Of a stretch of 48,191 nucleotides of DNA, positions 3,775-23,021 are shown one piece after another (position 1 is the stretch's first letter; every line of letters begins with the position of its first letter). Origin of the DNA: a virus. A program made the position numbers and the translations under genes. The notes beneath the pieces are model-generated. The model was not told the origin of the DNA. It was given only the letters and a program-made list of their open reading frames with translations, and did not search any database. The stretch is taken from the IMG/VR virus record IMGVR_UViG_3300022932_000154, positions 1 to 48,191 of that record, one strand, 5' to 3'.

Positions 3775-3841
3775 ATGAAATCACTAAGTATTAAAATACT
3801 CGAAATCGATTACCTGCCTTATTAATACTTAGTGATTTCAT
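3775..3841. repeat. Perfect 20-bp inverted repeat, 27-nt spacer
   Basis: Positions 3775-3794 and 3822-3841 are exact reverse complements (arm ATGAAATCACTAAGTATTAA). The pair lies between a rightward gene cluster and the leftward gene ending at 3869, so a bidirectional transcription terminator is possible. The arms are AT-rich, the spacer is long and there is no clear U-run. An inverted-repeat relic of a mobile element is an alternative. Confidence 0.6.
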
Positions 3842-4120: not shown

Positions 4121-4437
4121 ATGAAATCAGTCGATATTTATAAGCCTATTACAAATATTGCCTGCATAAGGAGTATGTCCTTATCGGTGATTTCTATTCT
4201 CCTGATCATGAGGCAGTACTGGGTATTTTTAACCCTAAAAAGAAGCTCAGGGCAACTTCTCATAAAACTGGATGGATCGATGATGAGCGGAACATCTAGA
4301 ATAAAGCAGGCCAGCTTCTTATGGATAAAAATAATGTAGCTAATGCTCAGGACTGGCTGATTGTTAGAAGAACGCCTACCGATCTGTGTACCAGCGAAAC
4401 AATTGAATTAATTAAATCGGTGGTAAATATTCGTTGA
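4121..4437 (+). pseudogene. Decayed gene with one frameshift and one TAG
   Basis: The frame starting at ATG 4121 (MKSVDIYK) is protein-like for about eight codons and then becomes nonsense. The +1 frame takes over near 4145-4170 and reads YKYCLHKEYVLIGDFYSPDH and onward to TAG at 4297-4299. It then continues in the same frame (NKAGQLLMDKNNVANAQDWL) to TGA 4435-4437. Two lesions in one roughly 105-codon gene make decay the simple explanation. The nonsense codon fits CAG to TAG. The original function is unknown. The longer frame at 4100-4339 is not the real one. Confidence 0.55.
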
Positions 4438-5343: not shown

Positions 5344-5736
5344 GTCCGAGTGTTTGTTTTTTTAAGGGAGCGCAAAAGTAGTGTTTTTTTTTAACAACAT
5401 TTTGGGGTATAAAAAATATGTCTTTCGACATATAATCGGTAACACCCATACTTTGTTGTATTGTACAACACAACAGCTAAAGTACTATTATGTTTGTAAT
5501 TAACAAACATAATTACATTTAAATTTACAAATACATTTACAAATACATTTACAAATATACATTCAATTATATTATCACGAATAGTCCAAATGTCATATTC
5601 AAATTGTTATGTAGCATGTGTATTGTCTTTAAAGTGGGAATATGAATTAACATTACATTGAACTCCACTAACCTTACATTAAGTTATTCTCGGAAAAAAA
5701 TGGGCAAAATAATTATATGTCGGTATGAAATGGATA
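5344..5736. promoter_or_regulatory. AT-rich control region with three palindromes and 12-bp repeats
   Basis: This 393-nt non-coding stretch lies upstream of the leftward HEPN operon. It holds three palindromes: 5416-5433 (ATATGTC, 4-nt spacer), 5454-5470 (TGTTGTA-TTG-TACAACA) and 5488-5512 (TTATGTTTGT-AATTA-ACAAACATAA). Three tandem copies of a 12-bp unit follow (TTTACAAATACA at 5524, 5536 and 5548, the last with one change). Such stacking is expected of an autoregulated promoter. I see no gene in the stretch. Confidence 0.5.
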
Positions 5737-15617: not shown

Positions 15618-15914
15618 CTACATGAACGACAGTGATTCAGGAGGAGAACTACCGTTCATACTATTAATTTCGGCCTGATGCTGCTCAACGATCTCAATCA
15701 GCACCATTTGATCCTCATAGGTCAGTTTTTCATTAGCGGAATGGTTGAGACATACATCCCACCCGCTCTTCCTTTTAATTATCTGGCCGTAGACAAACCT
15801 GTCAACATAGATATGGTATAATTCACTGCCGGTACCACCAGGAATAGAGAGCTCAACTCTACTATCACGATTACCGAAGGAAGCCCAAAATTCAATTGAA
15901 TCCATTTTAAGCAT
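15618..15914 (-). CDS. Hypothetical protein, 98 aa
   Basis: The second gene of a leftward pair, it overlaps 15907-16116 by eight bases. ATG 15914 is used; MDSIEF three codons later is an alternative. It is a mainly beta protein (RVELSIPGGTG, YHIYVDRFVYGQII) with a helical end. The tight overlap suggests that the two small proteins work together. No family or function is recognised. Confidence 0.55.
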   Translation of the reverse strand: MLKMDSIEFWASFGNRDSRVELSIPGGTGSELYHIYVDRFVYGQIIKRKSGWDVCLNHSANEKLTYEDQMVLIEIVEQHQAEINSMNGSSPPESLSFM

Positions 15915-16116
15915 AATGATCCTCTATCAAACCACCTATTGACCGAAGTAAAGATTCGTCTACGTCATCAGATTTCCATTCAAAACCATTGAGATCTTCC
16001 GGTACAATTTTGATAGATCCAAGATACCTGGTTTCTTGAAATAGCTCGAAATTCTTATCATCTATAGGCTTAACTGTGATTAAATTATTTTGATACGTGA
16101 TGTTAAATGGCTCCAT
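15907..16116 (-). CDS. Small hypothetical protein, 69 aa
   Basis: This is the first gene of the leftward pair. A beta-rich start (FNITYQNNLITVKPI) and an acidic helical end characterise it. Small proteins with this look are frequent in Sphingobacteriaceae genomes, but I know no role. Only about 60 bases separate it from the rightward gene starting at 16174, so divergent promoters must overlap there. Confidence 0.55.
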   Translation of the reverse strand: MEPFNITYQNNLITVKPIDDKNFELFQETRYLGSIKIVPEDLNGFEWKSDDVDESLLRSIGGLIEDHYA

Positions 16117-16173
16117 AATCTTTTTTATTAAAATACACTTGCAATAGTACTAAATTTATTAGTAAAATTGTGC

Positions 16174-16488
16174 ATGAAAATCGCTTACATTCTTAACGAT
16201 CCCCTAATTATTTCTGCAGAGAAGTACCACGCCCTTAAGGAAGAAATAGAAAAATGCCTTTTAGCCTTTTTTGATCAGGTTTCTTGTAAAGATGCAGATT
16301 CCAGTGATGCATACATCTCCTTTTATGGCACGAAGAATAATCCAAAGTGGGCAGCAGTGGCTGTATTTCATTGTGCAGAATCTTATGAGCAACAGAAGTC
16401 TGGAACTCTTCAGGAGGAATTAAAAAAAAGGCTTTCTGTGCTTATGCATAGTTATAATCACGCAATAAGTGTAAAAAATAAGGTATGA
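16174..16488 (+). CDS. Hypothetical protein, 104 aa
   Basis: I use ATG 16174 (MKIAYILND); a TTG two codons upstream is in frame. It is an alpha/beta protein (KWAAVAVFHCAESYEQQKSG) with a helical C-terminus. Single gene, convergent with the XRE gene at 16511 with 22 bases between them. The function is unknown. Confidence 0.55.
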   Translation: MKIAYILNDPLIISAEKYHALKEEIEKCLLAFFDQVSCKDADSSDAYISFYGTKNNPKWAAVAVFHCAESYEQQKSGTLQEELKKRLSVLMHSYNHAISVKNKV

Positions 16489-16510: not shown

Positions 16511-16759
16511 TTATTTATGCGGTTCTTCGAAAAGCTGTCCAGGTTTAATCCCCAGGTGCTCAGCAATTAGACACAGCATTGTAATATTTGTGTCAACCTT
16601 ACCATTCTCGTACTGACTGATCATACGAGTTTCTATATCGCAAAGATGTGCGAGCTTCTCTTGACTTAAGCCTTTTAGCTTTCGGTATTTACGAATATTT
16701 TCCCCAACGATCGTTATCATTCTGTCGTTCCGTTTATATCTGTTACTCGTTGTGCTCAT
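16511..16759 (-). CDS. XRE-family HTH regulator (second copy)
   Basis: The 82-aa protein is a minimal Cro/C1-type DNA-binding domain: VGENIRKYRKLKGLSQEKLA, then CDIETRMISQYENGK, then MLCLIAEHLGIKPGQLF. It is paralogous to the protein at 5737-5979 in domain limits and length, and shares its leader. It lies immediately left of the promoter and structured RNA at 16821-16970 and transcribes away from them, so it may regulate that divergent unit. Confidence 0.85.
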   Translation of the reverse strand: MSTTSNRYKRNDRMITIVGENIRKYRKLKGLSQEKLAHLCDIETRMISQYENGKVDTNITMLCLIAEHLGIKPGQLFEEPHK

Positions 16760-16788: not shown

Positions 16789-16820
16789 GTACGGGATAAT
16801 ACCTCGGGAGGCAAATTTTA

Positions 16821-16851
16821 TTTGAATATTTACTATTTTAGTGTACCTCAT
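16821..16851 (+). promoter_or_regulatory. Probable promoter of the structured RNA
   Basis: TTTG (16821-16824), 19 bases, then TACCTCAT (16844-16851) fits Bacteroidota promoter spacing exactly, although the -7 box matches only in TA and one T. The predicted start, five to eight bases downstream, falls at the first base of the closing stem of the RNA (16857). Confidence 0.45.
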
Positions 16852-16856
16852 CAGTA

Positions 16857-16970
16857 AAGTAAGCGACCTGGGTGCGAATGGTGTGTGGAGCGGGGACACT
16901 CGACATATGGTAGTAGCAGGCATTTAGGCAATGGCCTGTACCTCTGGTAAGGGAAGCCAGGCGCTTACTT
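16857..16970 (+). ncRNA. Putative structured non-coding RNA of unknown class
   Basis: The ends form a long closing stem: AAGTAAGCG (16857-16865) pairs with CGCTTACTT (16962-16970), and after one bulged A, CCTGG (16867-16871) pairs with CCAGG (16957-16961). This gives 14 base pairs. Inside, GTA-CAGGC-ATT (16913-16924) pairs with AAT-GCCTG-TAC (16930-16941) with two bulged G residues and a TAGGC loop. CTGG at 16944-16947 can alternatively pair with CCAG at 16957-16960, giving a mutually exclusive fold. A promoter precedes it and a terminator follows. No open frame longer than about 11 codons starts inside. I cannot match it to 6S, SRP, tmRNA or a known riboswitch. Confidence 0.6.
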
Positions 16971-16996
16971 ATATCGTAGATTAAGTATTACATCAA

Positions 16997-17027
16997 ATAG
17001 GCCGTGTAGAAATGCAAGGCCTTTTTT
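16997..17027 (+). terminator. Intrinsic terminator after the structured RNA
   Basis: AGGCC (16999-17003) pairs with GGCCT (17018-17022) around a 14-nt loop and is followed by six T residues in a row from 17022. It would end the short rightward transcript that starts near 16857. Confidence 0.6.
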
Positions 17028-17252
17028 GTACGCCTTAGAATTAGATATTCTGAACATAGGACTCTCACAAAATATACAGGCGATTGTCAGGCTCTTGGTC
17101 TTCCCTCATCCGGAATTAATAAAGGGTATCTGTACTGATAAAAACTCGTGAAGTGAGGTACGAACTGAACACCTAATAAATCCCGGCCTTGGCCGGGGAT
17201 GCCTTTCCCTTTCAACCCTTAATAATTTGGGTTTAGATATTTTATTAACTTC
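17028..17252. other. Non-coding stretch with a GC-rich hairpin
   Basis: I see no gene here. The one clear element is a strong near-palindrome at 17180-17200 (ATCCCGGCC-TT-GGCCGGGGAT) without a U-run. It could be a protein site, a pause hairpin or a packaging signal. Confidence 0.4.
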
Positions 17253-17472
17253 TTAACCAATATAAATTACAGACTTAAACAGACTGAGAAACAGGCCGTT
17301 TAATGGTTAAAGAAATAATTCTATTTTATTAACCAAATAAAGAAGTTAATAAAAGTTATTAACCATTATACCGGTTAATAAAATCGAATTGACTGGTTAA
17401 CAAAAAATGATGAGTTCGGTTAATAATTAAAATGTTGGATATCAGGAGATAGACCACCGGTTAAGAAGTTAA
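17253..17472. repeat. Array of GGTTAA/TTAACC boxes (iteron- or operator-like)
   Basis: Eight exact GGTTAA motifs occur on both strands at 17253, 17305, 17329, 17359, 17373, 17395, 17418 and 17459, plus two AGTTAA variants at 17344 and 17467. That is ten boxes in 220 AT-rich bases, in a non-coding stretch just before the late operon. Candidates are a replication origin, sites for a late activator, or a packaging region. Confidence 0.6.
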
Positions 17473-17628
17473 CGAATTTTCTGAGGTTTAGCCTGGTAAA
17501 AAATTACAACTGTTTTCTAATTGCACAGATCTTCACACATTATTGATGAATATTGCTCGGAATTTCTTTATTTTTACGCTGCCAATCAGAAAACCTTCTT
17601 ATTAAAACTGCGTCCTTAATCTAAATTA

Positions 17629-18138
17629 ATGAGCGCTAGAATTCTATTGCCTTTACGGCCCTACATCAAACGTTATCTCACTATCCAGTATGGAAAAGAA
17701 TTATGTATCTCTGATAGAGGTATGGTTTCCTTTTTATTGCTCAATATGCTGGAAAAACATCCAAAGTCCGATCCATCGACGATCAGGCCATCAGCTAAGT
17801 TGATCGACGATGTGGAATTTGTCGGATACCCAATTTTTATAGGTGACAAGTACCAAAAATCCCGGGGTTTGTATCTTACTCAGGAGAAGATCCTTGAATT
17901 CAATGACAGCCTGGATGATATGATACGGGAAGAGATGTACCGCTGGTGCAATCATCCTGGTTCAATAGATGGCAAAGTAGATTTTGATATTGTCCGCTTC
18001 CGTGATATATATGGGATTACGGAAGATGAACTTCCTTTCGATAATCTTAAACGATGGTATTACCGAAATAGGGAGCGCCTGCAAAAACGCGGAACGGTAG
18101 AAAAGCGCCTTGAACCTCAACTTACACTCAATTACTAA
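17629..18138 (+). CDS. Hypothetical protein, first gene of late operon
   Basis: The 169-aa basic protein begins with ILLPLRPYIKRYLTIQYGKE. Its C-terminal region (RFRDIYGITEDELPFDNLKR, then WYYRNRERLQKR) looks like a small DNA-binding helix bundle. Its place between the GGTTAA array and the structural genes suggests a regulator or DNA-packaging factor rather than a capsid part, but this is inference. About 155 bases of AT-rich sequence separate it from the last box. Confidence 0.6.
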   Translation: MSARILLPLRPYIKRYLTIQYGKELCISDRGMVSFLLLNMLEKHPKSDPSTIRPSAKLIDDVEFVGYPIFIGDKYQKSRGLYLTQEKILEFNDSLDDMIREEMYRWCNHPGSIDGKVDFDIVRFRDIYGITEDELPFDNLKRWYYRNRERLQKRGTVEKRLEPQLTLNY

Positions 18139-22117: not shown

Positions 22118-22138
22118 GATCATTTTTAGATTGGTTAG

Positions 22139-22168
22139 AAAGTCCCTGAGTGTTCAGGGACTTTTTTT
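22139..22168 (+). terminator. Strong intrinsic terminator inside the head block
   Basis: AAAGTCCCTGA (22139-22149) pairs perfectly with TCAGGGACTTT (22154-22164) around GTGT, followed by a run of T to 22168. It stops the capsid-gene transcript just eight bases before the start of the trypsin-like protease gene. Confidence 0.9.
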
Positions 22169-22175
22169 ATATTGC

Positions 22176-23021
22176 ATGAAAAAAGATATGTTAACCCAAA
22201 AAGAACTTTTAAGTTATTCAACTGTAAAGATTGAGACTTTTGATGTAGATGGTAACAAAAGTACCGGAACTGGTTTTATAGTAAATTTAGCGGTATTAGC
22301 TGATAAAGAACAAATAGTACCCATTATCATTACGAACAAACATGTTGTAGAAGGAGGGGTTAAATTCAGAATCAATTTTTGTCTAGCAGGTGCGGACCAT
22401 CAACCGATAGATGACCAACATTTCCCAATTGAATTCACAACACAAATTCTACCTTGGGTAATGCATCCTGAACATGATGTAGATCTATGTGCCATTCCAA
22501 TCGCGCCACTTGACGGAGCAGCAGTAAAAAATGGTAAACGACTTTATTATGTACCACTAGGATTAGAATGCATTCCGAATGCTGAAACAATAAGTCATTT
22601 CGATGCTATTGAAGATATTCATATGATTGGATATCCAATTGGACTTTCGGACGAAATAAACAACAAGCCTATAGTCAGAAAAGGTATCACTGCTACTCAT
22701 TTTATGAAAGACTATAATGGAAAAAAAGAATTTGTAATTGATTGCGCATGTTACCCAGGATCTAGTGGATCTCCTGTGTTTGTTATCAATAGTGGTAATT
22801 TTACATCAAAAGAGGGGAAGTTCATGTATGACACTAGCCGATTGTTTCTATTAGGTGTACTGTGGGGAGGTCCTCAGTTTGATGCTGGAGGTGAATTGCA
22901 TGTAGTGGATATACCTACTGCACAAACGGCATTTGTTTCATCGAGTATACCAATGAATTTGGGTTTCGTCATTAAGTCACAAAAGATACTTGATTTTTTA
23001 CCACTTTTCGGGATCCAATAG
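22176..23021 (+). CDS. Trypsin-like serine protease (S1 fold), cargo gene
   Basis: The 281-aa protein starts at ATG 22176; the open frame extends upstream but that part is the terminator. The chymotrypsin-fold triad is visible: H56 in ITNKHVVEG, D103 in HPEHDVDLCAI and S197 in CYPGSSGSPVFV, with TGTGFIV before the His. There is no signal peptide, so it acts in the cytoplasm. Similar cytoplasmic trypsin-like proteins occur as effectors or accessory subunits in defence loci. It sits alone between head genes behind a terminator, the pattern of a moron rather than a virion gene. A virion-processing role is possible but less likely. Confidence 0.75.
   Translation: MKKDMLTQKELLSYSTVKIETFDVDGNKSTGTGFIVNLAVLADKEQIVPIIITNKHVVEGGVKFRINFCLAGADHQPIDDQHFPIEFTTQILPWVMHPEHDVDLCAIPIAPLDGAAVKNGKRLYYVPLGLECIPNAETISHFDAIEDIHMIGYPIGLSDEINNKPIVRKGITATHFMKDYNGKKEFVIDCACYPGSSGSPVFVINSGNFTSKEGKFMYDTSRLFLLGVLWGGPQFDAGGELHVVDIPTAQTAFVSSSIPMNLGFVIKSQKILDFLPLFGIQ

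Follow-up and report, generated by a model that had tools for sequence, protein, structure and literature searches.

Small RNAs have been described in several temperate phages, including PreS and OOP of lambda, sar of P22, VpdS of VP882, and STnc6030 of BTP1 (PMC12197685). These RNAs act by base pairing on known targets, several of them with Hfq, and several influence lysogeny or superinfection (PMC12197685). Bacteroides has no obvious homologue of Hfq or ProQ, and its small RNAs average ~35% GC and often have little structure (PMC7366714). Mycobacteriophages possess RNA-based replication origins that include a noncoding RNA (PMC7157519). The literature searched for this analysis yielded no small RNA characterised from a phage of the Sphingobacteriaceae.

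The candidate described here is, like the lambda, P22, VP882, and BTP1 RNAs, a short noncoding unit in a temperate phage. Unlike those RNAs, which have known targets and act by base pairing, it is known from sequence alone, and no relative of it was found in the genomes and records searched. It shares an intergenic site, an intrinsic terminator, and a Bacteroidota setting with intergenic Bacteroides small RNAs such as GibS, but those RNAs are chromosomal and average ~35% GC (PMC7366714), whereas this RNA is phage-borne, has a GC content of 54%, and is closed by a long stem. In kind it is similar to the phage small RNAs already known; it fits no described family and is still an orphan.

The window, meaning the whole 48,191-nt stretch that was analysed, is an IMG/VR record of 48 kb that encodes an integrase and a head maturation protease. 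Judged by its first late gene (17629-18138, 169 aa), the window is closest to phage records and prophages of Pedobacter, Mucilaginibacter, and Sphingobacterium, and it appears to be a temperate phage of the Pedobacter type (Sphingobacteriaceae). The early genes point rightward and reach ~15.5 kb; the late genes begin at 17629, and the interval holds small genes, an XRE gene, the RNA, and noncoding DNA rich in repeats (Table 1). The small genes at 15618-16488 matched no described defence gene family. Elsewhere, among the head genes, a trypsin-like protein (22131-23021; Pfam Trypsin_2) matches the PADLOC candidate defence family PDC-S45 with an E value of 1e-102.

Table 1. Features of the XRE and RNA unit, in window coordinates
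Feature	Coordinates	Strand	Evidence
XRE helix-turn-helix regulator, 82 aa, divergent from the RNA	16511-16759	-	Pfam HTH_3, E 5e-14; PHROGs transcriptional repressor
Candidate XRE operator TACCTCGGGAGGCA	16800-16813		Only TRCCTCNNGAGGYA match in 48 kb; homologues have repeats at similar distance
Weak promoter region, TTTG-N19-TAcctcat or -7-like TATTTTAG (16834-16841)	16821-16851	+	Neither element better than chance
Structured RNA, three hairpins inside a closing stem	16857-16970	+	Fold, shuffles, GC peak
Intrinsic terminator, AGGCC/GGCCT stem then six T	16999-17027	+	Sequence and fold

The initial annotation proposed a 14-bp closing stem with one bulge and an internal hairpin, and folding recovered this architecture. 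The stem has 14 pairs, formed by 16857-16865 and 16867-16871 with 16957-16970, and leaves A16866 bulged. It encloses three hairpins, at 16873-16915, 16916-16939, and 16942-16953. The folding energy is approximately -49 kcal/mol (z -4.5), and none of 500 dinucleotide-preserving shuffles was as stable. In a coarse scan of the whole window this was the lowest-energy 120-nt window; when mononucleotide shuffles served as the control in the same scan, it was not the most extreme. No 114-nt window of the phage is richer in GC than the one that begins at 16851 (55%; mean 39%). A separate low-GC region at 5401-5520, outside the RNA unit, folds strongly on both strands.

The reverse complement of the RNA is equally significant (z -4.7). 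The inner part alone reaches only z -1.9, so the closing stem, a terminal inverted repeat, accounts for most of the folding excess. With both strands equal and the weight in the terminal stem, folding alone cannot tell RNA from DNA. The inverted repeat could accordingly be a DNA element, either a small mobile element bounded by terminal repeats or a site of recombination or binding, and its place in an accessory segment suits this reading. However, the phage holds one copy only, the flanks carry no clear duplication, and no copy was found in the host-type genomes searched; the several copies and target-site duplication of a MITE-like element are thus not seen here. Moreover, the terminator and the GC peak suit an RNA gene better and favour one on the + strand, which makes a DNA element unlikely. 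Inverted repeats of 9+5 bp with at most one bulge and arms within 170 nt occur at only three places in the 48 kb: near 3775, at the RNA stem, and in the repeat region at 17240. The first place corresponds to a long perfect inverted repeat at 3775-3841, outside the RNA unit.

The terminator with a T-run that had been annotated downstream is present; one terminator scan missed it because its loop is longer than the scan allows. The unit was also said to lack a coding frame, and indeed no + strand frame of at least 40 aa lies inside the RNA. One 17-codon frame (16931-16984), ATG GCC TGT ... GAT TAA, is open in the sequence and might be read as a short peptide gene in place of a noncoding RNA. This is very improbable, as the frame starts within a hairpin and has no obvious ribosome site, its peptide lacks a hydrophobic segment, and no homologue is available to compare for conservation.

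The promoter assignment fared less well. For Flavobacterium johnsoniae promoters, the -7 motif alone was confirmed, and a -33 motif was not detected (PMC7366714). The annotated TTTG-N19-TAcctcat promoter depends on TTTG-N19-TA at 16821-16845, a pattern found 65 times in the window with both strands counted, and its TAcctcat part matches three of the six fixed bases of TAnnTTTG. The best -7 match is TATTTTAG, with five of six, and sites of such quality occur at ~4 per kb. Given this weak match, the start site is uncertain by about 10 nt, and its annotated placement on the first base of the stem amounts to a guess. A TACCTC half-site is present at 16844-16849, and TACCTC also occurs at 16939.

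The initial annotation matched the RNA to no known class, and a scan of 4227 Rfam families agreed, with no covariance match at the gathering score. ARAGORN found no tRNA or tmRNA. A covariance model, R1, was built from the single window RNA, which was its only positive control; its larger searches ran with stricter filters that are able to lose weak matches. At E 0.1 or better, R1 found nothing in 400 Sphingobacteriaceae genomes, in 395 Bacteroidota genomes, or in 150 and 145 genomes of two Sphingobacteriaceae genera. It gave no credible match in related phage and prophage records and none near XRE homologues, which served as possible markers of the RNA. In IMG/VR, four sequence patterns and one stem pattern returned only chance or coding matches, and one sequence pattern was not found in GTDB contigs.

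Against phages and plasmids, blastn gave nothing but short matches, at E 0.4 or worse. In 145 genomes of the genus of G005, its short matches lay in unrelated protein genes. Ten of these were fetched, and in nine the RNA strand was opposite the gene, a count made with no shuffle control. They were set aside because the genes differ and composition is a likely cause. Well-folded noncoding windows in related phages (L022 at 4291 and L025 at 7291) proved to be unrelated hairpins. In L022, positions 4285-4370 form a long hairpin made of AGGGGTTAGCA-type repeats, where an early gene ends.

The lack of any relative in the material searched, together with the weak promoter, would suit a chance or decaying hairpin of no function in a variable intergenic region. 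Against this, the GC peak, the z of -4.5, and the terminator coincide within 170 nt, and such a hairpin is considered improbable.

The RNA was annotated as diverging from an XRE regulator, and the gene is found there on the opposite strand. PADLOC matches its protein only to generic helix-turn-helix regulators. Homologues in Sphingobacteriaceae genomes are 37-51% identical, and many have an inverted repeat, judged by eye, ~30-60 nt upstream of the start, e.g., AGGGATTTTAATCCCT. In the window, TACCTCGGGAGGCA sits between the promoter regions of the XRE gene and the RNA, and it is reasonable to infer that the two are under shared control. Upstream of the homologues L033-L053, the inverted-repeat operators are clear but differ (AGGGATTTTAATCCCT, ATGTGATTTGTCACAT, GACATGTCGTGCATG, and others); these Sphingobacteriaceae regulators form a ready set for work on operator specificity.

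The nearest relative (L002/L019) and L022 retain early genes, late genes, and the repeat-rich leader but have no RNA/XRE unit at this junction. L019, the closest phage, is 75% identical in DNA to the window from ~17104 onward and has no RNA there; a different terminator closes its early genes. In L022 the repeat region is present, and both the RNA and an XRE gene are missing. None of the related loci yielded an XRE homologue at the junction. The RNA and its XRE neighbour, which relatives lack at this place, are therefore an accessory unit. Just downstream, window 17118-17200 and L002 4495-4570 share a conserved noncoding TATCTGTACTGAYAAAAA...GTGAAGYGAGGYACGARCTGAACACC stretch followed by a GC-rich hairpin, with an overall identity of 75% between the two phages here. 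This stretch was not found in ten host-type genomes.

The lambda pR' 6S RNA, with Q, and the HK022 put RNA are structured leaders that act in antitermination control. The present locus is similar in placing a structured RNA and a terminator upstream of phage genes, and the order of promoter-like region, structured RNA, terminator, and late genes would fit a promoter-proximal leader of the late operon. It differs in that a separate promoter-like element serves the late genes and that relatives with the same late genes have no RNA. A -7-like TATTTTTA (TATATTTA in L011) precedes the first late gene by ~55 nt; seven phages keep it at a similar spacing, and this conservation suggests that the late genes probably have their own promoter. 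In addition, ~600 nt of noncoding repeat region separates the terminator from the first late gene. The leader role is thus quite doubtful, and the control of late genes proposed in the initial annotation is not borne out; a role in superinfection or on host RNA, which it also named, may apply. The probable late promoter is TATTTTTACATCAGCC-like and lies at 17566-17580 in the window; it and an AACTGCG in the leader are both kept in the seven phages.

The repeat region that adjoins the RNA resembles a replication origin. At 17238-17470 it is noncoding and holds a 7-nt word in numerous copies, both direct and inverted. Comparable regions lie upstream of the late gene in L011, L012, L014, L019, L022, and L023. 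The word at this place is GTTAATA in the window, L019, and L022, CTATCCA in L011, TGTCCAA in L012, L027, and L028, TGTTCCT in L014, and CTGTAAT in L023. These words look like iterons that would change along with their binding protein.

As this repeat-rich region starts ~200 nt downstream of the RNA, the RNA could help to start or control replication there, for which mycobacteriophage origins offer a precedent (PMC7157519). Both cases have a noncoding RNA region near phage replication functions. Here, however, the phage encodes an integrase, and L019 and L022 have this repeat region but not the RNA. It is consequently very unlikely that the RNA serves in replication.

The best explanation is an accessory, XRE-controlled, stand-alone small RNA gene that acts in trans, a reading given about an even chance; its transcription, control, and action in trans are all inferred. 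Counted for a small RNA gene are the fold (z -4.5), the GC peak, the lowest-energy 120-nt window, the terminator, and the lack of a coding frame, along with the divergent XRE gene and its operator-like repeat, the absence from relatives, and the promoter-like element of the late gene itself. Counted against it are the missing homologues, the weak promoter match, the equal terminal-stem significance of both strands, and the GC content of 54%. A small RNA gene is thus believable but unproven.

The transcript would be a stable RNA of ~170-180 nt, made up of a closed four-way 114-nt structure, a short tail, and the intrinsic terminator. The closed stem may protect the RNA from decay. The XRE protein probably binds the candidate operator and would thereby regulate the RNA as well as its own gene. 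Most likely, the RNA would act in trans on an RNA or protein of the host or of a competing phage. More speculatively, and with a rather low probability, it could be the first member of an undescribed family of Bacteroidota phage RNAs. Such RNAs would be closed, XRE-switched, and chaperone-independent, and would work in trans against a factor from the host or a competing phage, in superinfection exclusion or counter-defence.

At present this is a single candidate known from its sequence and with no relatives found, and its value is that of a good lead. If true, the pairing of a phage RNA with a dedicated regulator would provide a compact handle on the use of RNA by Sphingobacteriaceae phages.
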